Virus record (IMG/VR): IMGVR_UViG_3300027797_000122
Span: 1-26,011 of that record
Origin: a virus
Direction: 5' to 3' (one strand)
Length of the DNA: 26,011 nucleotides
Of the stretch, positions 1-25,592 are shown in pieces. The notes beneath the pieces were generated by a model, which was not told the origin of the DNA, made no database searches, and worked only from the letters and a program-made list of their open reading frames with translations. Each line of letters begins with the position of its first letter. Within the stretch, counting starts at the first letter, position 1. The position numbers and the translations under genes were made by a program.

Positions 1-3000
1 GATCTTCTGGTACAAGTGGATCAACAGGATCTTCCGGTACAAGCGGTTCTTCTGGATCATCAGGAACAAGCGGTAGTGCAGGATCATCTGGAACAAGAGG
101 ATCATCGGGCAGTTCTGGAACTTCGGGATCAAGTGGCTCTTCAGGAACGTCTGGATCAACGGGCACGTCAGGATCAACAGGAAGTTCTGGGACAAGTGGT
201 ACATCAGTCACCGTTCCAGGATCCAATGATCAAATACTAACATCGAACGGAAGTGGATCATTGGTAGCCGAATCCTTATTAACTTTTGATGGTACAAAAT
301 TAAGTCTATTATACCAATCAGGTGACGAAGGTGGTGAGATGCTTCTGAATAAACCGGTAACAAATACAACATTAGACGGTGGTGTTACGATTGATGTTTA
401 TCAAAATAAACTTCGTTTTTTCGAACAAGGTGGAAGTGCTCGAGGGTTCTACATAGACATAACAACGGGTGGTGGTGCCGCAAGTACTAATTTAGTAGGC
501 GGTGGTGGCAGTGGGACTTCTGGGTCAAGTGGATCTGCGGGGACGGCCGGTTCCAGTGGATCTACGGGGACTTCAGGTAGCAGTGGTTCGAGTGGAAGTG
601 CAGGATCTTCAGGAACGAGAGGTTCGTCTGGTACATCTGGATCGGCGGGTTCATCTGGAAGTTCAGGGTCATCTGGAACATCAGGAAGTTCTGGATCCAC
701 CGGTTCATCTGGAAGTTCAGGGTCATCTGGAACATCAGGAAGTTCAGGTTCGACCGGTTCATCAGGAAGTTCTGGATCCACCGGTTCATCTGGAAGTTCA
801 GGGTCATCTGGAACATCAGGAAGTTCAGGGTCATCTGGAACATCAGGAAGTTCAGGTTCGACCGGTTCATCAGGAAGTTCAGGTTCGACCGGTTCATCAG
901 GAAGTTCTGGATCATCTGGGTCATCCGGAACATCTGGGTCATCTGGAACCAGAGGGTCATCTGGAACATCAGGTCTTCTAAGCTTAACCGGAACCACAGA
1001 CAACGGGTTAATAACACTCAACGGTTCTCAACCGAACGGAACGGTGGAAACCAACCTTACATTCGACGGAAACACGCTGAGAGCCATCGCAAACACGACC
1101 ACAGTACCGCTCATAATCGCATCAGGTTCGTCCACTCAAGACTTGGTCAGGATAACGCAGGTAGGAACAGGAAACGCATTTGTGGTGGAAGATTCGACAA
1201 ATCCAGATTCTACACTGTTCGTTGTAAATGCAAATGGTGCCGTCGGAATCGGTGGAGCACCTAATGCATCATACAAACTAGATGTTATTGGTGGGACTCT
1301 ATCTGCAGCCATAAACACATCATCCACCACAGGTGACGGATTAGTTGCATCTGGAGGAGGCCCTGGTAGATACGGAGTTTGGGCGTCAAACGTAGGAGAC
1401 GCCAACGGAACATATGTGGCAGTCTATGGTCAGGCATTCTACGCAGATACTGCATATGTAACAAGTACTTACATTGGTGGAAATTTCGTCGCGGATGGTG
1501 GTGAAAACGCAAAAGCTTACTCAGTGAGGCTGTCGGACGGAACACAGGGAATCAACAAACTACTTGTTGATACAACCGGAAATGGAGATGCTAACTGGAC
1601 TAGCTCTATAAATGTAACATCAATAATAGCTTCCGCGTCCAGCACAGGAGATATAGTAAGGATAACACAGACCGGAACAGGAAACGCATTAGTTGTTGAA
1701 GATAGTTCTAATCCAGACCTAACACCTTTCGTGATTGACGCATCAGGTAACATAGGTGCAGGAACGGCGTCACCATCAACAAAGCTACACGTATTCTCTA
1801 CGACGAGTGGTGCTGTAAGGATAGTCGACGGGACACAACAGGCCGGATATGTCCTAACTTCTGACGCGAATGGTGTGGCAACATGGCAGGTGAGTACTGG
1901 TGGTGGATCTTCACTGAGTGGAACCGTAAACTACGTTCCGCACTACACGTCCACGACGACACTTTCATCAACAAGTTCTATACAAGTCTCAGGTGACACC
2001 GTTGGGATTGGATTGTCCTTTTCGAATACAAGTGGTCCTAGCACAGACCACAGACTACACGTTCACTACGGATCAGGAACCTACGGCGTTCTCATAGAAG
2101 GTGGTGGTGCAATATCGGAAAATATACCTCTGAGACTTTGGGACACCGGAACGGGTGCAAGTAACACAAACGTGCTCGAGTTCGCTCACGCAACGGGTAG
2201 TACGCCGAAATCGTACGTTCCTGCGGCCAGGGTGAAATCAGTAAACCCTGCGTCCGGTGCGACTACTGGTGCTAACCTGATACTCGAAACATCATCTTTG
2301 TCCGACCCTACCTCGACAACGTGGAACTCGAACCAACTATACCTCAGAAATGATGGAAACGTCGGTATAGGAACGAACACACCTTGGTCTTACCTGACCA
2401 TAAACACTCCAGGTGGAACATTGTACAGTGACGGCACGACCGGACAACACGGACTCATAATAGGAAGCCACTCGACCGGATTCAACCTTCTCTATATGGG
2501 AAGTGATGAAACAAACGATGTTGCATACCTTCAAGCTTCTGTTAGAGGAGGAAGTACATTACCGATAGTAATAAATCCAAGTGGTGGAAACGTCGGTATA
2601 GGGACCGTAACTCCAGCAGCAAAACTGGACGTAAGAGGGAGCTCAGGAATAATAATACTAGCATCCGCATCCACAACATCCGACCTGGTTAGGATTACTC
2701 AGACCGGTACAGGAAACGCTTTAGTAGTAGAAGATAGCGCGAATCCGGACTCGACTCAGTTCGTAATCAACTCGATTGGAAACGTGGGTATAGGTGCGAA
2801 TCCTTCAGGAGGTCGTCTATACGTACAAGACTCTACAAACACAGCGATATACGCTCTCTCATATGGTAATGATGGTATCACTGGTCAGAGCGTTGCTGGA
2901 GTAGGATTTGCGGGAGTGAAAGGAACGGGTCAGATAGGAGTCTATGGTTTGGCAAGTTCGGAGACGGGAACAATGATTGGTGTTCAGGGTTTTGCAAGCG

Positions 3001-3452
3001 AGATAGAGACAGGTAGTGGGACCTATATTGCTGGATACTTTGGGGCATTCTCAACGAACGGAACGAACTATTCACTAAGGTTATTAGACGGTACGGAAGG
3101 TGTTGACAAGTTACTCACGTCGGTAACGGCGGACGGCCATGCCAACTGGAAAAGCGACATAAAGGTTACGTCCATAATAGCATCAGCATCGAGTACAGGT
3201 GATCTTGTTAGGATAACACAGACTGGAACAGGAAACGCACTTGTGGTAGAAGATAGTGCGAACCCTGACGCGACACCTTTCATCGTTCACACGACAGGAA
3301 ACGTCGGTGTGGGTACGGCATCTCCGACAAACACACTACACGTACAGGGCTCGATGAAGCTGACCGGAACGTTCTCAGGAAACAACACAAACTTCGTACA
3401 GTCCGAGCTCATAACACAGACAGTTCTACTCTATATGTCTAACAACACATAG
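1..3452 (+). CDS. Collagen-like tail fibre/adhesin protein, 5' end outside window
   Basis: The reading frame is open from base 3 to the TAG at 3450-3452 (1149 residues visible) and has no start in the window, so the gene begins upstream. A TTG at 261 lies inside the frame and is not the start. Order seen: a G-X-Y tract (G every third residue, X/Y mostly S/T), a ~97-residue spacer, a second G-X-Y tract of 159 residues, then ~825 residues of beta-rich sequence with recurring VGIG(T)-type motifs followed by a K/T-L-x-V strand. That layout is familiar from phage tail fibres and from proteins carrying an endosialidase-type chaperone, but no S74 chaperone domain is visible at the C-terminus. The tracts have no proline, unlike many collagen-like phage fibres. 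The role in host attachment is inferred from architecture and from the adhesin-like genes downstream. Confidence is high for a fibre-type virion protein, low for its exact position in the tail. Confidence 0.8.
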   Translation, partial: SSGTSGSTGSSGTSGSSGSSGTSGSAGSSGTRGSSGSSGTSGSSGSSGTSGSTGTSGSTGSSGTSGTSVTVPGSNDQILTSNGSGSLVAESLLTFDGTKLSLLYQSGDEGGEMLLNKPVTNTTLDGGVTIDVYQNKLRFFEQGGSARGFYIDITTGGGAASTNLVGGGGSGTSGSSGSAGTAGSSGSTGTSGSSGSSGSAGSSGTRGSSGTSGSAGSSGSSGSSGTSGSSGSTGSSGSSGSSGTSGSSGSTGSSGSSGSTGSSGSSGSSGTSGSSGSSGTSGSSGSTGSSGSSGSTGSSGSSGSSGSSGTSGSSGTRGSSGTSGLLSLTGTTDNGLITLNGSQPNGTVETNLTFDGNTLRAIANTTTVPLIIASGSSTQDLVRITQVGTGNAFVVEDSTNPDSTLFVVNANGAVGIGGAPNASYKLDVIGGTLSAAINTSSTTGDGLVASGGGPGRYGVWASNVGDANGTYVAVYGQAFYADTAYVTSTYIGGNFVADGGENAKAYSVRLSDGTQGINKLLVDTTGNGDANWTSSINVTSIIASASSTGDIVRITQTGTGNALVVEDSSNPDLTPFVIDASGNIGAGTASPSTKLHVFSTTSGAVRIVDGTQQAGYVLTSDANGVATWQVSTGGGSSLSGTVNYVPHYTSTTTLSSTSSIQVSGDTVGIGLSFSNTSGPSTDHRLHVHYGSGTYGVLIEGGGAISENIPLRLWDTGTGASNTNVLEFAHATGSTPKSYVPAARVKSVNPASGATTGANLILETSSLSDPTSTTWNSNQLYLRNDGNVGIGTNTPWSYLTINTPGGTLYSDGTTGQHGLIIGSHSTGFNLLYMGSDETNDVAYLQASVRGGSTLPIVINPSGGNVGIGTVTPAAKLDVRGSSGIIILASASTTSDLVRITQTGTGNALVVEDSANPDSTQFVINSIGNVGIGANPSGGRLYVQDSTNTAIYALSYGNDGITGQSVAGVGFAGVKGTGQIGVYGLASSETGTMIGVQGFASEIETGSGTYIAGYFGAFSTNGTNYSLRLLDGTEGVDKLLTSVTADGHANWKSDIKVTSIIASASSTGDLVRITQTGTGNALVVEDSANPDATPFIVHTTGNVGVGTASPTNTLHVQGSMKLTGTFSGNNTNFVQSELITQTVLLYMSNNT
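3..206 (+). repeat. G-X-Y (GSSGTSG-type) coding repeat, tract 1
   Basis: About 68 codons with glycine at every third position and Ser/Thr (rarely Ala/Arg) elsewhere. The tract continues past the left edge of the window and ends just before the VTVPG segment. A collagen-like triple helix is the likely structure, inferred from periodicity only. Confidence 0.85.
498..974 (+). repeat. G-X-Y (GSSGTSG-type) coding repeat, tract 2
   Basis: This tract has 159 codons with strict glycine periodicity after an initial GGGG. At DNA level it contains near-identical longer units. For example, the segment starting GGATCCACCGGTTC at 693 recurs at 774, an 81-base (27-codon) offset, which suggests growth by slippage or unequal recombination. 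Two Arg residues (GTRG) interrupt the Ser/Thr pattern. Confidence 0.85.
1113..3344 (+). repeat. Four dispersed 57-58-codon modules in the fibre gene
   Basis: Copies lie at 1113-1286, 1623-1793, 2655-2825 and 3174-3344. Each reads roughly IIASxSST-xDLVRITQ-GTGNAxVVEDSxNPD-xxFVV-GNVGIG-xxL-V. The second and fourth are each preceded by a further shared block (S-RLxDGT-G-KLL...ANW), from about 1517 and 3069, so a larger ~90-codon unit was duplicated. The copies differ in codon choice, so they are old relative to the G-X-Y tract repeats. Confidence 0.8.
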
Positions 3453-16826: not shown

Positions 16827-18521
16827 TTAGTTCAGCAATTGAGCTGCATCTTTTACACTGATAGTCATGAATTGTTTTTGTGGGAACCATCCAACTTCAG
16901 CAACAGCGTACCTAGATCTCAAGAGCATTCTTGGAGCGAAAGTCGCCTCAGAAATAACTGAGATAGATTGAGCCATAAGGTAAGGAACGAAGATGATACC
17001 TGGTTGATCAGCGTTGTTTTTCCTACCAAGGACGATTCTGTTGTCGTTGTATCTCATGTAAGGATCAACATAGATAGCGATGTCGCCTATTGAACCTACA
17101 GGGTAAAGTTGACCTTGACCGTTGAGTTTAGATTTCACAGGGTTGATTGTGTAACCAGCGATGTCTTGAAGAGCTGCAGCAAGACCTCCGTTTGTGATAA
17201 GGTATTGAGCAGGACCTACACGACCCTCAGTAGCGATAAAGTTAGAAGCATGAGCAATTTTCGTGATCAATTTTCTTTGTACAGCGTGAGTAGTCTCACC
17301 ACCAGGTGCGTTAGTAGTAGCGTAAGCAGTATCAAGGTCGAAGATAGTGTGACCAGTGATAGTAGCAGTACCAGCGAAAGCAGGTGCAGATGTTCTGTTG
17401 AGGTCACCCATTTCGAAAATCTTAGCAACGATTTGCTTAGAGATTGTTTGGGAAAGCTCGTTCACAAGGATAGATTCCATCTTTTGTACGATGTCCATAC
17501 CTGTGTTAGCTTTGATATCCTCGATTTCAGTTCTTCTGAGTGCTGAAGATACTTCGATAGTACCAACTGCGATAGTCTTAGAAGAAATCTTAGGTCCGAT
17601 TACACCAGCGTAGCTATCATCATCATCTTGACGTGACATTGGATAATCACCAGATTGAATGTTAGATGTCCAGTTTGCAGAGAAACCTGGGATGTGATCC
17701 TCAAGTGCAGAAATCAACTGAATCTCTTGTGGCGTTACAGATGCAGTACCAATGTACGTAATCTGGTCAGACATAGAAGCTGTTGGGTTGAATGTGTTTT
17801 TAGTTTGATCGTAAACGTAAAGTGTGTTAGCACTTGAACCAGCAACGTTAGCTTGTCTCCATGCTCTGAACATTGGATAACCGTCTACCCTTGAGAAACC
17901 TAAGAACTCAAGTTTTTTGTACTTAGTAGTAGCAATTCCTGCAGCAGATTCAGTAGTCTTTAGATCTGAGCTACCTTGTATGTTATCTACGAAAAGTCTT
18001 CCTTCAGCAAGACCGCCAGTTGTAAGAACTGCAGAACCAATGAATTTAGCAACAGTATCTTTAACTTCTTGAAGATCCGTAGCACCCAATTTTACTTTGA
18101 ATACTTGTGGTCTTTCGTCTGTTCCGTTTGTAGATCTTGAATCATCGTATTGGAAATCGATGTAAAGAAGGTCGATTTTCGGACCTGGTGATGGTTTAAC
18201 AGCTACGAGGTCAAGACCGATAGTCTGAGCAGCGATTTTCATCGCAACTGGAAGAAGGTTTTGTCCTACGTCACCTGAACCAGCAACTGGTGAAAGTACG
18301 TTACCTGTTCTTGGGTTACCTGCGAGGTCACCCACAACTGGATTCAATACAGCGCCCATACCTCCTACGTTAGAAGCATTTACGTACGCATTTTCGTTGA
18401 TTGAGTGGAACTCAGCGTATTCCGCCATCCATTCTACTCTATCACCTGTGACACCCATATTCTCGAGAACTGGTGCCCATTTTTTAGTGGCTTTCGCCTT
18501 GTCTATCCTAATGTGTGACAT
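16827..18521 (-). CDS. 23: Major capsid protein, T4 gp23-like
   Basis: This 564-residue protein is close to T4 gp23 (521) in length. The N-terminus (KATKKWAPVLENMGV, then WMAEYAEFHSINE) parallels gp23's leader (LLNKWKPLLEGEG...). A gp21-type cleavage site is visible at I41-N42-E43 followed by NAYVNASNVGGMGAV, matching gp23's LTE-A...YNATN. Later segments fit the HK97-fold capsid core: a long N-arm, SAALRRTEIEDIKANTGMDIVQKMESILVNELSQTISKQIVAKI as the spine region, and IFVPYLMAQSISVISEATFAPRMLLRSRYAV near the end. The gene lies directly downstream of the protease-scaffold gene, as in T4, and ends at a strong terminator with its own TATATA box upstream. Codons are more T-rich than those of its neighbours. 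Confidence 0.9.
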   Translation of the reverse strand: MSHIRIDKAKATKKWAPVLENMGVTGDRVEWMAEYAEFHSINENAYVNASNVGGMGAVLNPVVGDLAGNPRTGNVLSPVAGSGDVGQNLLPVAMKIAAQTIGLDLVAVKPSPGPKIDLLYIDFQYDDSRSTNGTDERPQVFKVKLGATDLQEVKDTVAKFIGSAVLTTGGLAEGRLFVDNIQGSSDLKTTESAAGIATTKYKKLEFLGFSRVDGYPMFRAWRQANVAGSSANTLYVYDQTKNTFNPTASMSDQITYIGTASVTPQEIQLISALEDHIPGFSANWTSNIQSGDYPMSRQDDDDSYAGVIGPKISSKTIAVGTIEVSSALRRTEIEDIKANTGMDIVQKMESILVNELSQTISKQIVAKIFEMGDLNRTSAPAFAGTATITGHTIFDLDTAYATTNAPGGETTHAVQRKLITKIAHASNFIATEGRVGPAQYLITNGGLAAALQDIAGYTINPVKSKLNGQGQLYPVGSIGDIAIYVDPYMRYNDNRIVLGRKNNADQPGIIFVPYLMAQSISVISEATFAPRMLLRSRYAVAEVGWFPQKQFMTISVKDAAQLLN

Positions 18522-18556: not shown

Positions 18557-18562
18557 TATATA
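18557..18562 (-). promoter_or_regulatory. TATATA element upstream of the capsid gene
   Basis: The minus strand reads ACAAATATATAGATT, 35 bases before the ATG. The leader between them is A-rich (CAAAAAAAAATAAAAATTTAAAA). It is a candidate late promoter giving extra capsid mRNA. Confidence 0.45.
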
Positions 18563-18608
18563 TTTGTCTACTTTTCCTTATTTTTGTACTTAGTGGATTT
18601 TTTACAGA

Positions 18609-20777
18609 TTACACGTTTTTGAACCTCTCCATTATAGCGGTCATCTCGCCATCAGAAAGTTTATCCTCTTGGATGATCGAGTCGTGAGAAACGAGCTTCT
18701 TAGTGGATTCGTTCTTTTTGAGATTTCTAGTAGACCAGAAGTGCTCGATTTGAGATTCAGTCATCAACATTTCCACAGGGTAAAGTCTAGCTTGTGAAAG
18801 TATAGACTTCTTAGCTGATTCGTTGAACTGATTCCAGATAGCCTTGGTGTTTTCAGGCATCATCCTGATAACTCTCTCTTCAAGAGATTCAGATTTTGTA
18901 GAAAGCGCCTCGGAGATGAGTGTGAGTACATCCTTCGGTGTGAAGTAACTTCTTTCGTTTATGTGAAGTTTAACTGTATCTTGCTCTTCGTTAGTGAGTG
19001 CATAGTAGCTGTCTACTTGTGATTTTGACAAGAACTTAAGGAAGTTCAGGTCAGATGTCTCAGAAACTTTACGTTTTTTAGCTTCTTCGATCAATATGTC
19101 GATTTGAGATGAAAGCTCAGACTCGTTGTGTCCAGATACCTCACGGTTCCAGTTGTCAGCGTCATCGTCGTCATCATCATTGTCGTCGTCTTCGTGTTTA
19201 ATATGTACTGCCTCAGGAGAAACCTCAGCGATACCCGCAGGTCCACAGACAGCATCATCATCGTCATCATCCATATTATGTGCCATATCAGCATCGTCAT
19301 CGTCATCATCCTCTACAGCTTCAAAACCGTGTGCATTAAGTGATGGGAAGTTATCCTCAACAGATTCGAAAATTTTTCCACCATTGAGTTTCTCAGTAAT
19401 CATACCTGAGTAAGAGATAGATTTGTCGAGGTTCTCAGCGATATACTCAGAATATGCGATGTTGTCATCAAGATGCTCAGCAAGGTATTCAGAGTAAGCA
19501 ATGTTACCTTCTACGTGCTCAGCAAGGTACTCAGAGTAAGCGATAGAATTATCTACGTGCTCTGCGATGTATTCAGAATAAGCGATGTTTTTATCCAAAT
19601 TCTCAGCGATATACTCAGAATATGCGATGTTCTTATCCAAATTCTCAGCGATGTACTCAGAATATGCGATGTTTTTATCCAAATTCTCAGCAAGATACTC
19701 AGAATAAGAAATGTTCTTATCTAGGTTTTCTGCGATATACTCAGAGTAAGAAATGTTCTTATCTAGGTTCTCGGCAACATACTCAGAATATGCGATGTTT
19801 TTGTCAAGATTCTCAGCAACATACTCAGAATATGCGATGTTTTTGTCAAGATTCTCAGCAAGGTACTCAGAATAGTTTACTGCTTTCTCAAGGCTCTCAG
19901 CTAGGTAGTCGTTGTGTTTGATAAGCTTGTCAGTAGTCTCTTTCAAAGACTTGTTCTCGTTTACCATAATCTGAACTTTCTCAGCTAGGTAGTCTAGGTA
20001 TTTCACAACTTGTGAATTTGTCTTGTTGAGCTCCTCATAGTACTCGAGAAGTTGTTCAAGCCTCTTAGGGTTCATGTTGCCCTTTGTAATGGCACTCTTA
20101 ACCTCCTTCTTAGTAGAAGCCAACTCCTTGACCAAATACTGAGAGTAGTCAGTCAACTGTTGTTTAGTAACGTACTCGTTTTTGTTCATGTTGAATAAAT
20201 CGTTGATTTTTGACTCATCGGACATCTCATATATCCTAAAGTTAGATTTCGGGTCAGCGAAGCCAAGCGACTCATTAAGAACTTTAACACTCATTTTAGC
20301 CGATGCAAATCCTGGATCTGCAACAATGTCGTAAGTGAATAATTTCTTTAATGAGACCGTACCATCAGACTCTGTTATACCTGCGGCGCGTGAAGAAACA
20401 AAAAGAGGACATCCGTCGTCGACGAGTGCCTTTGCTTCTTTACCCCAATAAGTACTTAACAGTCTGATTTCGCCCGCAACTAGGTTCTGCTCCTTGATAT
20501 AATCAGCCTTAGTGATTATGTGTGAAGCCCTAGAAAGAGAAGTATCGAAAACATCCGGGTGGTCGAACTCGCCGTAAACGACTCCGAGGTTATTCATCCT
20601 CTCGTTCATCTCGCCAAGCGCAGGAAGGAACCTATCAGCAGTGTACACTCTCTCATTTCTGTTCTTTATATCGAACTCAGTGAATGTTCCGTTTAATACG
20701 TAATCCTTCTTACCAGTCCCGCCACTTTCCCTCACAAGGGAATTAGTAGAGTTTTCTACAATCAATACTGGTTTCAT
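18609..20777 (-). CDS. 21: Prohead protease (gp21-like) fused to a repeat-bearing core/scaffold protein
   Basis: This protein has 722 residues. Residues ~25-165 match T4 gp21: IKNRNERVY (38-45), GEFDHP (69-74, H73 catalytic), VSSRAAG (127-133, Ser nucleophile at S128/S129) and TYDIVADPGF. T4 gp21 is only 212 residues. Here ~550 more follow: a helical region (~200-290), 11 tandem 14-residue repeats of the form YSEY(L/V/I)AENLDKNIA, acidic Asp runs (DDDDDDADM; DDNDDDDDDAD), and a ~130-residue helical C-terminus. A helical, acidic, repeat-rich protein next to the capsid gene suits a gp22-type assembly core, so protease and scaffold appear to be one polyprotein. The order portal-protease/scaffold-capsid follows T4. 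A TATATATAT box lies 29 bases upstream. Confidence 0.85.
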   Translation of the reverse strand: MKPVLIVENSTNSLVRESGGTGKKDYVLNGTFTEFDIKNRNERVYTADRFLPALGEMNERMNNLGVVYGEFDHPDVFDTSLSRASHIITKADYIKEQNLVAGEIRLLSTYWGKEAKALVDDGCPLFVSSRAAGITESDGTVSLKKLFTYDIVADPGFASAKMSVKVLNESLGFADPKSNFRIYEMSDESKINDLFNMNKNEYVTKQQLTDYSQYLVKELASTKKEVKSAITKGNMNPKRLEQLLEYYEELNKTNSQVVKYLDYLAEKVQIMVNENKSLKETTDKLIKHNDYLAESLEKAVNYSEYLAENLDKNIAYSEYVAENLDKNIAYSEYVAENLDKNISYSEYIAENLDKNISYSEYLAENLDKNIAYSEYIAENLDKNIAYSEYIAENLDKNIAYSEYIAEHVDNSIAYSEYLAEHVEGNIAYSEYLAEHLDDNIAYSEYIAENLDKSISYSGMITEKLNGGKIFESVEDNFPSLNAHGFEAVEDDDDDDADMAHNMDDDDDDAVCGPAGIAEVSPEAVHIKHEDDDNDDDDDDADNWNREVSGHNESELSSQIDILIEEAKKRKVSETSDLNFLKFLSKSQVDSYYALTNEEQDTVKLHINERSYFTPKDVLTLISEALSTKSESLEERVIRMMPENTKAIWNQFNESAKKSILSQARLYPVEMLMTESQIEHFWSTRNLKKNESTKKLVSHDSIIQEDKLSDGEMTAIMERFKNV
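19413..19874 (-). repeat. Eleven tandem 42-base (14-residue) repeats in the scaffold region
   Basis: The 462 bases hold exactly 11 units of YSEY(L/V/I)AE(N/H)(L/V)(D/E)xxI(A/S) with no spacers. Degenerate units flank them (HNDYLAESLEKAVN before, YSGMITEKLNG after). Fourteen residues is two heptads, fitting a regular helical rod. Neighbouring units are nearly identical in DNA, so copy number probably varies between related phages. Confidence 0.9.
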
Positions 20778-20806: not shown

Positions 20807-20815
20807 TATATATAT
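20807..20815 (-). promoter_or_regulatory. TATATATA element upstream of the protease-scaffold gene
   Basis: The minus strand reads AAAAGATATATATACAC, 29 bases before the ATG at 20777. It is the longest TATA run in the window and a candidate late promoter. Confidence 0.45.
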
Positions 20816-20911: not shown

Positions 20912-21298
20912 ATGATAACAACAAGGGAAATACCCGTAAAGATTACAGACCACAATTACCAGTACTACGACGACCTGGGCTACGACACCACACTCGGCGA
21001 AACTATAGTAATACCTGTGGAACTGCTACCAAAAGGATCACACTACAAAATAACCTGTAAGTGCGATGGCTGCGGCATTGAGAAGCAAGTAATCTACAAA
21101 AATTACCTAAGATACGGGAATAACTTCGGTGAATACTACTGCAGAAAGTGTTCAGAACACAAAAGGATAAAAACGCTAAGAAAGAACTTCGGCGTAGACT
21201 ACCCAATACAAAACAAAGGAGTACTGGGTAAAATGAAGAAAACAATAATGGAGAAGTACGGCGTAGACAACATCTCCAAAAAAGAAAAAAAGAAATGA
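20912..21298 (+). CDS. Zinc-finger protein, possibly a truncated homing-endonuclease-like protein
   Basis: This 128-residue protein has a zinc-binding arrangement CKCDGC (C49, C51, C54) and CRKC (C77, C80). Two copies of a (F/Y)GVDxxxxxK-type motif follow (NFGVDYPIQN, KYGVDNISKK). The KYGVxNxSxx motif with a leading zinc ribbon is common in free-standing phage endonucleases, where a nuclease domain usually follows. Here the protein stops right after KYGVDNISKKEKKK, and its last bases overlap the RNase R start (ATGA), so the nuclease part seems lost. It may now be a DNA- or RNA-binding protein coupled to RNase R. This is inference from motif style only. Confidence 0.55.
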   Translation: MITTREIPVKITDHNYQYYDDLGYDTTLGETIVIPVELLPKGSHYKITCKCDGCGIEKQVIYKNYLRYGNNFGEYYCRKCSEHKRIKTLRKNFGVDYPIQNKGVLGKMKKTIMEKYGVDNISKKEKKK

Positions 21299-23193
21299 GT
21301 AAATACACAGAGGGCGACACGATAGAAGCCCAGATAGAGTTCGCCGGATCAGGCAACGCAACAATCAAAATCGACGAAAGAGAGTTCTTCGTACACAAAA
21401 AGAAGACCGCAAATGCCCTGCACCTGGATAAGGTCAGGGCAGTTCTGTTCAAAGGAGAACGAAAAATGGAAGCAAAAGTCGTAGATGTTCTCGAAAGACA
21501 CAAGACAACATTCGTAGGAACAGCACAGGTCGGAGCGAACCACACATTCGTAATACCAGATAGTTCCAAGATGGTCGTAGACTTCTTCATAAAAGGAAAC
21601 CACGAGGCACAGAACGGACAGAAAGTCATCGTAGAGATGATAGACTGGGAAAAGGAAAGGAAATCACCAAGAGGCAAAATCACCAAAGTTCTCGGACTGA
21701 AAGGAGAAAACGAGACAGAGATGAACGCCATTATGTACGAGTACAACCTACCAATAGACTTCCCACAAGAAGTACTAAACGAAGCCGAGCTAATATCCGA
21801 CGTGATTCCAGAATCCGAAATCAAAAACAGAAGAGACATAAGATCATGGACCACCATCGGTATTGATCCACACGACTCGAAAGACGCAGACGACACAATC
21901 GGAATGCACTTCGAAAACGGAAAGAGACTAATATCCATAAACATAGCAGACGTATCACACTACGTCAGACCAGGCAGTGAACTCGATAAAGAGGCATACA
22001 AAAGGTCTAGCTCCGTTTATTTAGTAGACAGATGTGTACCTATGATACCACACAAACTATCAAACGGAATATGCTCACTCAAATCCGGAAGTGACAAGCT
22101 ATGCTACTCAGTAATCGTAGAACTGAACAACGACGGAAGAATCGAAGACAGCTGGTTCGGAAGAACTGTCGTCAGAGTCGACAAAGACTACTCATACGAA
22201 ATGGCACAAGAGGTCATCGAGAGAGGAACTGCCGAGGTAGACACCGAGAAGGTAATACTCGAACTCGACAGACTCGCCAAAAAGATGAGGAAACGAAGAA
22301 TGAACGGCGGTTCTATGGAAATCGGCGGAGTAGAGGTGAAGTTCAAGCTAGACGGAGACGGAAAGAAACCAGTCGGTGTCTACCTAAAAGAACAGAAAGA
22401 TGCGAACCACCTCATAGAGGAGTATATGCTTCTCGCAAACAGAGAGGTCGCAAGATTCATCAAATCGAGACACCTTCCGTGTGTCAACAGAATACACGAA
22501 GAACCAGGAGAAGAGAAACTTGAACACGTGAAGACATTCATCGCCGGACTCGGATATATGATCAACTACGGAAGTACCGCCGAAAAAACAAAACTCGCAA
22601 TCAACCAACTGATGAGAGACTCGAAGGGCACACCAGAGGAGAACATCATAACAACACTGGTGATAAGAGCACAACAGAAAGCGAAGTACTCTACAAAAAA
22701 CATCGGACACTATGGTCTCGGTTTCGAGAACTACTCACACTTCACCTCACCAATCAGAAGGTATAGTGACATATTGGCACACAGGTTATTGTCTAAGGCA
22801 CTGAACGCACAAGGATATAACAAAGAAGTAAACCATAGTGAACTGGATAAGCAGTGCGAGTGGATCTCCAAACAAGAGATGGTTGCTACAAAGGCACAGA
22901 GAGACTCCGTCAAATACAAACAGGCAGAGTACCTACAGGACAGGATCGGACAGGTTTTCGACGGAGTCGTTTCAGGCGTTCTCGAAAGAGGAATATATGT
23001 AGAGCTCACAGAAAGTAAATGTGAGGGAATGATAAGGATATCAGAGATGGGTGGAAAGTGGACAGCATACCCAGACAAATATGCAGTTATGAACGAGTTC
23101 GGCGAGACGATTCGATTAGGGGATCCAATCAAAATCGTAATAAAATCGGTAGACTTAGAAAAGAAACAGATTGACTTCATAAAATTCAACTAA
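21295..23193 (+). CDS. rnr: Exoribonuclease R (RNase II/RNB family)
   Basis: This 632-residue protein contains a cold-shock-type OB region (~1-135, with KVVDVLERHKTTFVG and GKITKVLG), the RNB catalytic domain (~175-515) and a C-terminal S1 domain (~540-630, GQVFDGVVSGVLERGIYVEL). The metal-binding aspartates are present with RNase II spacing: D191, D197, D199, D200 in IDPHDSKDADDTI. HFTSPIRRYSDILAHR at 482-497 carries the conserved arginines. E. coli RNase R has 813 residues; this one lacks the N-terminal extension and the basic C-terminal tail. The family degrades RNA 3' to 5', including structured RNA, and in bacteria works with tmRNA on nonstop mRNAs. The gene is coupled to the zinc-finger gene and followed 2 bases later by an unknown gene. 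Confidence 0.9.
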   Translation: MSKYTEGDTIEAQIEFAGSGNATIKIDEREFFVHKKKTANALHLDKVRAVLFKGERKMEAKVVDVLERHKTTFVGTAQVGANHTFVIPDSSKMVVDFFIKGNHEAQNGQKVIVEMIDWEKERKSPRGKITKVLGLKGENETEMNAIMYEYNLPIDFPQEVLNEAELISDVIPESEIKNRRDIRSWTTIGIDPHDSKDADDTIGMHFENGKRLISINIADVSHYVRPGSELDKEAYKRSSSVYLVDRCVPMIPHKLSNGICSLKSGSDKLCYSVIVELNNDGRIEDSWFGRTVVRVDKDYSYEMAQEVIERGTAEVDTEKVILELDRLAKKMRKRRMNGGSMEIGGVEVKFKLDGDGKKPVGVYLKEQKDANHLIEEYMLLANREVARFIKSRHLPCVNRIHEEPGEEKLEHVKTFIAGLGYMINYGSTAEKTKLAINQLMRDSKGTPEENIITTLVIRAQQKAKYSTKNIGHYGLGFENYSHFTSPIRRYSDILAHRLLSKALNAQGYNKEVNHSELDKQCEWISKQEMVATKAQRDSVKYKQAEYLQDRIGQVFDGVVSGVLERGIYVELTESKCEGMIRISEMGGKWTAYPDKYAVMNEFGETIRLGDPIKIVIKSVDLEKKQIDFIKFN

Positions 23194-23855: not shown

Positions 23856-25592
23856 TTAAAACTCGAACTCAGCACCACCCTGTGCACCACCTTGTGCCGG
23901 AGGAGGAGCTTGAGCACCACCCTGTGCTGGAGCCTGAGCCTCACCACCCTGTGCTGGAGGAGCTTGAGCACCACCCTCGGTACCGGCCTCGCCACCACCT
24001 TGAGCACCCATCTCACCGCCACCACCCTCGGCACCGGCTTCACCAGGAACACCGGATCCGATAGCTGTGGCATCCTTCGCCCAGTATCTGGCGTTCTCTG
24101 CCTTCTCTTCTGGAGATAACTTGAATATGTTATCCATTATCCACTCTATGTGGAAATAAGGTTTCTCACCATTCATAACACCTAAAAGTGTACCGACTAT
24201 TCCTGCCTTCTTCTCGAGGTTACCGAGCTTCTTCCATTCCTCGAAGACTTGGTTTGAGTAAAACTCTATATCCATTTCGTTGAGGAACTTATCGTCGTCT
24301 ATGAGCTCAGGAAACTCTATTAGCATCTGAAGCTTCAACGGCTTCACAATAATCTCTTTGAAGTTGGCACGAAGCCTTCCGATGAAGTTGTGAAACTTTA
24401 TCTCGTCTCTCGTCATCTCTGCAGCATCAGTTACCAGGTTTCCACCACCAGCTTCACCCTCGAAACGATTCAGAGGAATCTTCGACGCTCTCTTCAATGC
24501 CTGGTGAAACCACTTTAGCATTCCATCCTCGTTTAGATCGTGACCCTGTGGTGACTTCAACTCCATAGACGGAGATCCAGCATCTCCCTCTGGAAACCAT
24601 ATCTGCTTGTTGAAAGGAAGGTGCTTTGAACCATTTATAGTAAGAGTACCCAGTGTGTCGTCCCACTCGACCTCCTCAGAGTAGTCGTGTATTAGCTGAC
24701 CAATCTGCTCTTCTGCTCTTTGTCTGGATAAACCTTTGATTGGAATTTTGAACTCCTGGTAAAGAGTAGCGTTGATGATGTTGAACATTATCTTAGTCTG
24801 CTCAAGTATCTTCAACTGGTTATAAGGCTTTATAAGACCCTCGACATAAGAAGTCTCCGAGAAATCGTTCTGAGTCGAATATGATATGAATACTATTTGT
24901 GAATCGAGGAATATCCTTCTGAGTTGTGGATCCTCAGGATATTGTATCCAGAGGTGACCAACGTTAGGCTCGTACGCAGGAACTATCGTCTCAGGTCTTA
25001 ACCTGTTGAATGCGATTATGTTCTTCTTTTTGTCATCGTAAACTATCTCCATCGCGACGTATCCGTCCACAAGGAAGTCTTTTATAAGGTTGAATGCGGT
25101 AACACTATCAGAGAATCCATACCTGTTGTATATCCTTTCGAAGTACTCAATGTACTTATCCTGTATCTCTTTACTATATCCAGTAGAAAGTGACCTGAGC
25201 GAGCAGAAATCCCTGTCGTCGTTGTAAACTACACACTCATCTGCCACCTGACTGATGAAGTCTCTTATCTCGTCCTTTATAGAGTACTCACGAAGTATCC
25301 TTCTTTTGTCAGGATAAGAACGATCCAAATAAGGTATAGATTTTCTACCAAGAACTGAGGCTACTGCCCGTTGGCTAAAGAAATCATACATCGAATTTCC
25401 TTTAGATGCATACGGATCCTCGTTTATTCCGACACCGACCTGATTACGGATAATCATATCATCATAATTCATTCCGTGATTCGATAAGTTCCTCAATATC
25501 CTATTGAAGAAACCTTTGTTCTCACCGGAATTCTGTAGACCGAATGCCGCGTTGTTATTATCGTTGTTGTTAAAATAGTTATAAGAGGCCAT
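23856..25592 (-). CDS. 20: Portal vertex protein, T4 gp20-like
   Basis: This 578-residue protein is near T4 gp20 (524) in length. Portal-type features are an N-terminal helical region, a beta-rich wing (YVAMEIVYDDKKKNIIAFNRLRPETIVP), LEQTKIMFNIINATLYQEFKIPI, then WFHQALKRASKIPLNRFEGE near residues 360-380, matching gp20's conserved LKKLYKSLNVP-x-R-x-E segment. Later comes EIIVKPLKLQMLIEFPEL. The C-terminal ~64 residues (from about 515) are a Gly/Ala/Gln/Pro/Glu low-complexity tail ending AEFEF, which T4 gp20 lacks. Twelve subunits should form the DNA entry vertex. The start overlaps the upstream HNH gene by 14 bases. Confidence 0.85.
   Translation of the reverse strand: MASYNYFNNNDNNNAAFGLQNSGENKGFFNRILRNLSNHGMNYDDMIIRNQVGVGINEDPYASKGNSMYDFFSQRAVASVLGRKSIPYLDRSYPDKRRILREYSIKDEIRDFISQVADECVVYNDDRDFCSLRSLSTGYSKEIQDKYIEYFERIYNRYGFSDSVTAFNLIKDFLVDGYVAMEIVYDDKKKNIIAFNRLRPETIVPAYEPNVGHLWIQYPEDPQLRRIFLDSQIVFISYSTQNDFSETSYVEGLIKPYNQLKILEQTKIMFNIINATLYQEFKIPIKGLSRQRAEEQIGQLIHDYSEEVEWDDTLGTLTINGSKHLPFNKQIWFPEGDAGSPSMELKSPQGHDLNEDGMLKWFHQALKRASKIPLNRFEGEAGGGNLVTDAAEMTRDEIKFHNFIGRLRANFKEIIVKPLKLQMLIEFPELIDDDKFLNEMDIEFYSNQVFEEWKKLGNLEKKAGIVGTLLGVMNGEKPYFHIEWIMDNIFKLSPEEKAENARYWAKDATAIGSGVPGEAGAEGGGGEMGAQGGGEAGTEGGAQAPPAQGGEAQAPAQGGAQAPPPAQGGAQGGAEFEF

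Follow-up and report, generated by a model that had tools for sequence, protein, structure and literature searches.

In the T4-type head cassette of a 26-kb virus fragment, the 26,011-nt stretch of DNA analysed here as a whole (the window), a single gene encodes both the prohead protease and a scaffold-like region. This gene, a single ORF with an ATG start, encodes 722 aa and occupies 18609..20777 of the minus strand, on which all features described below lie unless marked (+). The first-pass annotation had proposed the fusion and had allowed that a frameshift in the reads might split the gene. In fact, a frameshift or assembly artefact is excluded because the ORF is uninterrupted in about 100 related contigs and genomes. 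The architecture, the catalytic residues, the cassette, the cleavage motifs, a nucleotide element at the domain junction and an internal ATG are all conserved. We favour a model, to which we give as a whole a probability of roughly 0.55, in which the gene acts as a nested pair in the manner of herpesvirus UL26/UL26.5, giving rise to a protease-scaffold form and to a scaffold-only form.

The fusion gene lies between two other genes of the cassette: the gene of the major capsid protein, of the gp23 family (16827..18521; Pfam Gp23, 8.6e-28), and that of the portal protein, of the gp20 family (23856..25592; Pfam Portal_T4, 2e-58). A TWATATATA box is present ~20-26 nt upstream of the portal, fusion and capsid genes, and in the window late-promoter-like boxes precede the fusion gene (ATATATATA, 20807..20815) and the capsid gene (ATATATA, 18557..18563). 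The window also contains, on the opposite strand, an RNase R/RNB exonuclease gene (21295-23193, +) that separates the portal and fusion genes; these two genes directly adjoin each other in a few Mahaphages and in the LR756500 clade. Close to the contig end, a 1063-aa collagen-like protein with GSSG repeats resembles tail fibres (261-3452, +).

How widespread is this arrangement? One search returned 80 related contigs and a second one 22, to which are added genomes of 634, 636, 642 and 735 kb and one of 462 kb; because many relatives are near-identical, sequence counts overstate their independence. The four largest genomes are complete and belong to the Mahaphage clade, Lak phages included, and replication in Bacteroidetes is predicted for five genomes >634 kb (PMC7162821). 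The fusion is kept from the Mahaphages (634-735 kb) to the LR756500 clade, the Lak phages and the cultivated Tenacibaculum phages PTm5 and pT24, and the same C-terminal domain is found in Lak-C1 (584 aa) as well as in PTm5 and pT24. Fusion-bearing phages form a large clade of jumbo phages, mostly infecting Bacteroidetes, and the capsid gene directly follows the fusion in nearly all loci that reach it, with one gap >400 nt among 101. The two genes are separate in T4, cyanophages, RaK2, Paride and the Campylobacter, Rhizobium, Erwinia and Vibrio relatives. The fusion is already present in databases, because Lak, PTm5 and pT24 records carry it: PTm5 and pT24 annotations read "prohead core scaffolding protein and protease" or "prohead core scaffold", and predicted-structure databases list such proteins as "Peptidase U9, T4 prohead protease", "Prohead core protein serine protease" or "Prohead core scaffold". 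We found no paper discussing it in the open literature searched. In PTm5 and pT24, as in the window, the S77 protease is fused to the helical C-terminal domain and the capsid gene comes next, but these phages lack both this type of 14-residue repeat rod and a Met at the domain junction.

By profile, alignment and predicted fold, residues 1-170 (20268..20777) are a T4 gp21-type S77 protease with its catalytic triad intact. The PHROG 207 head maturation protease profile matches the N-terminus of the fusion at E=3.9e-31, and the Pfam S77 match is weak (E=0.0019, 18.1 bits vs a gathering score of 27). T4 gp21 (5JBL), also matched by sequence profile, is the best fold match in Foldseek (E=3e-6, TM 0.61 by target length) for an AlphaFold model of moderate confidence (mean pLDDT of 58 for the full-length fusion and 74 for the C-terminal domain). 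The predicted triad, His73, Ser128 and Asp150, aligns with T4 His85, Ser140 and Asp168 and is invariant across the 12 sequences compared, from T4 to the window. Two huge-phage genomes, LR756501 (11437-11790) and LR756500 (154858-155151), each contain a second and shorter protease-like match to PHROG 207. The window shares with T4 a homologous protease with the same triad, the same gene order before a gp23-type capsid gene and a scaffold region enriched in L/I-x-E. T4 differs in that protease and scaffold are separate genes and gp22 has no 14-residue repeats; counterparts of genes 67 and 68 were not seen here.

L/I-x-E is the cleavage motif of T4 gp21, and the cut follows the Glu (PMC9026906). 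After the protease domain of the window this motif occurs 23 times vs 10 expected from composition (z=4.8), and in T4 gp22 16 times vs 5.7 (z=5.1). At the very end of the protease, L167-N168-E169↓S170 (20268..20279) aligns its Glu169 with T4 Glu187, and [LIV]NE[SA] is present there in 105/109 fusion sequences, some of them redundant. We consider this (L/I)NE↓S a candidate autocleavage and release site, where the protease may cut. The capsid protein carries one conserved I-N-E↓N near its N-terminus (69 loci), in the window a candidate propeptide site at residues 41-44 (18390-18401).

Further on, AlphaFold predicts with low to medium confidence a long helical region (residues 205-465, 19383..20165), along which eleven 14-residue repeats follow each other in register (consensus YSEYIAENLDKNIA; residues 302-455, 19413..19874), with degenerate copies at 260, 288 and 456. 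The first-pass annotation had described exact two-heptad repeats: the two heptads hold as a length only, and the copies are near-identical, not exact (Tandem Repeats Finder, 10.5 copies of 42 nt, 82% match). Nine of the eleven contain (I/L)-A-E and the other two V-A-E, outside the strict L/I-x-E. Among 1066 repeats of relatives, the motif Glu is 98.4% conserved and the other Glu of the repeat 82.5%; position P3 of the motif is I, L or V in all 1066 and P1' is mostly Asn. Because most repeats bear an L/I-x-E motif, the rod looks as if it were built to be shredded by the protease.

An earlier suggestion was that repeat number sets rod length and hence head size. Repeat number does vary, mostly 10-15 among Mahaphage genes, but phages of 634, 642 and 735 kb all have 12 repeats, those of 636 and 597 kb have 10, and a 540-kb Lak phage has none. 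Across five genomes the correlation of repeat number with genome size is 0.58 and not significant. No useful relation emerged, and we judge such a ruler very improbable. Small unrelated proteins of two complete Mahaphages contain 1-3 copies of the fusion's 14-residue repeat (L222:1450-1701, L223:1120-1743, L226:1510-1740), which might serve as tags for bringing proteins to the core.

Beyond the rod, an acidic Asp-rich linker (19137..19328) is predicted to be disordered (pLDDT <50), and the Asp runs noted earlier are indeed present at about residues 488-546. The helical tail described with them is backed by the AlphaFold model, in which the C-terminal domain (~170 residues, 18612..19127) is all-helical. 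This domain appears to be an internal duplication, since its observed profile score is reached in 0/200 column shuffles. A PDB search with the domain gave no match.

The scaffold half occupies the position of gp22, between the protease and the gp23-type capsid gene. We rank it as a positional and architectural analogue of gp22 with no demonstrable homology to it, because hhalign finds none (probability 0.4%) when the profile of the entire C-terminal region is compared with 18 representatives of gp22. Of the proposed union of protease and core, the single gene is supported and the core half as a gp22 homologue is not. When the second half of the duplication was compared with the C-terminal segment of gp22, a weak signal appeared over one 26-column segment; it is a lead only, because the segments were chosen by eye. 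The PHROG 237 (gp22) profile has no match in the window fusion protein, and at E<=1 phrog_237 is absent from eight genome-scale fusion-bearing records (LR745206, LR756501, LR756502, LR756504, LR756500, Lak-C1 and two contigs of 597 and 476 kb); the positive controls T4, P-TIM40 and pv27 gave matches. A separate gp22-family gene, which would have spoken against a fused core, was therefore found in none of these eight relatives. RaK2, whose scaffold position is occupied by a different protein, gave no phrog_237 match either, so an absent match leaves room for a divergent scaffold.

The protease and the C-terminal domain are found apart in Sphingomonas phage PAU (gp151 and gp155), which has the S77 protease and, unfused and just before the capsid gene, the C-terminal domain (E=1e-9). 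The domain is unannotated there and directly follows gp155 in another frame, across a run of nine A (L211:7291-8318); the frame shift at this run reflects a sequencing indel or else a site of slippage or frameshifting. Both states are thus available in culture, fused in the Tenacibaculum phages and unfused in PAU.

The strongest constraint on synonymous change in the fusion gene falls at the junction between its two halves. Codons 179-190 have the top score, 106 vs 44 for the next window, and the maxima elsewhere are 61 for the capsid gene (at its own start) and 14 for the portal gene; shared ancestry inflates these binomial scores, which are meaningful solely for contrasts among windows and genes. 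The constraint persists in ten diverged members (45 vs 14). It reveals a 37-nt element, AACTTTAGGATATATGANNTRTCCGAYGAGTCAAAAA (20207..20243), present in most relatives as one near-exact copy per genome, at the junction; two divergent members (L070 and L084) lack an intact one. Of 35 sequences, nearly all allow the element to fold into a 4+5 bp hairpin, but there is only a single compensatory change. It lies ~30-66 nt upstream of an in-frame ATG (20187..20189) whose product, Met197, is Met in 60/60 distinct Mahaphage sequences, and the junction linker of the LR756500-clade and Lak fusions also bears a Met. From the element and Met197 we propose a nested scaffold-only frame of 526 aa (residues 197-722, 18609..20189).

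What could this element do? An RNA hairpin, a promoter and a start signal are three candidate functions. As an ordinary late promoter it is a poor match in Mahaphages, where it reads ATATATG and promoter sites end in A in 96/96. A good match, GGATATATAGA, is found at the junction in part of the LR756500 clade only, in a different reading frame and 37-40 nt before that clade's own junction Met. T4 does have a late promoter at its protease/scaffold junction: TATAAATA spans the stop codon of gene 21, 27 nt before gene 22. In most complete relatives, the late sigma factor family of T4 is matched weakly. An Rfam search with the element returned no credible match, and a programmed frameshift at the junction was set aside as no conserved slippery heptamer was seen by eye.

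These features bear on how protease and scaffold are rationed. In the T4 prohead, ~72 copies of the protease face 576 copies of the scaffold (PMC9026906), and the first-pass annotation had reasoned that a fusion would fix the ratio at 1:1 unless extra initiation or cleavage occurred. A fixed 1:1 ratio is unlikely: the candidate release site, the conserved junction element and the internal ATG, which is invariant, all speak against it, and the sequences suggest instead that extra scaffold is made beyond the full-length protein. A precedent exists in herpesvirus UL26/UL26.5, where an N-terminal protease is followed by a release site, a short linker and an in-frame start for a scaffold-only product (PMC4498786). 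The window has its candidate release site at 169 and its candidate start at 197; it differs in its protease family (S77 vs S21) and in that its internal product is deduced from sequence, and we claim no homology between the scaffolds. Taken together, the element, Met197, the LR756500-clade promoter match, the T4 junction promoter and the UL26/UL26.5 analogy favour a separate scaffold product.

What follows on the nested pair, from its internal product and its cleavages to its role in the core and its contacts, is inferred. The full-length protease-scaffold would bring the protease into the core. The scaffold-only form (residues 197-722) would initiate at Met197 under the control of the upstream element and make up the bulk of the core, its long helical region forming rods and its helical C-terminal domain touching the shell or the portal. 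Once the capsid-protein shell closes, the protease would free itself at LNE169↓S, trim the capsid-protein propeptide at INE↓N and cut the rod at the repeated (I/L)xE sites, producing peptides of ~14 residues able to exit the head.

Other readings have to be weighed against this one. It could be that only the full-length protein is made, at a fixed 1:1, so that every core subunit carries a protease which later cleaves itself off. The conserved release motif would fit, as would the Tenacibaculum fusions that do without a junction Met and the two Mahaphages that do without the element; yet the strong synonymous constraint on the element and the invariant ATG in Mahaphages, as well as the 72-to-576 imbalance of T4, make this reading unlikely in our eyes. 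We hold it equally unlikely that the bulk scaffold is some other, unrecognised protein and that the fused tail is an extended protease propeptide for core targeting. In work on SPN3US, the C-terminal propeptide of the protease was proposed to have such a targeting role (PMC7411985), gp22 counterparts are difficult to recognise in giant phages (PMC5694885), and stray proteins with the same repeat occur elsewhere in some Mahaphage genomes. The tail, however, measures ~550 residues, includes a long rod and sits at the gp22 position, and PAU has the C-terminal domain at the scaffold position apart from the protease. Moreover, several Mahaphages and the LR756500 clade have the portal gene 25-110 nt upstream of the fusion and the capsid gene adjoining it, so there is no space for further core genes.

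The junction element could also have nothing to do with a second product and serve, for example, as a site where a regulator binds or mRNA is processed, or as a signal for packaging or replication. Its poor fit to late promoters in Mahaphages, its foldability and its uniqueness in the genome are consistent with this; against it stand the position exactly at the domain junction, a short distance before an invariant ATG, and the promoter-like GGATATATAGA that part of the LR756500 clade has there in a different frame. We find this reading doubtful, though less so than the two above.

A bolder proposal can be made, which we advance tentatively and at somewhat less than even odds: huge phages would have independently evolved a herpesvirus-like nested protease-scaffold gene. 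In it, a dual-coding element at the protease-scaffold junction, RNA or promoter, would govern the proportion of core subunits with and without the protease, and the rod would be a tandem row of protease sites, to be shredded into peptides of 14 residues. A parallel open to testing is thereby drawn between the ways in which T4-type phages and herpesviruses link protease to scaffold and ration the two, and the 37-nt element offers a short and specific target for experiments. Weaker dips in synonymous diversity were also seen in the C-terminal domain (18843-19097), at codons 561-575, 603-617 and 631-645.
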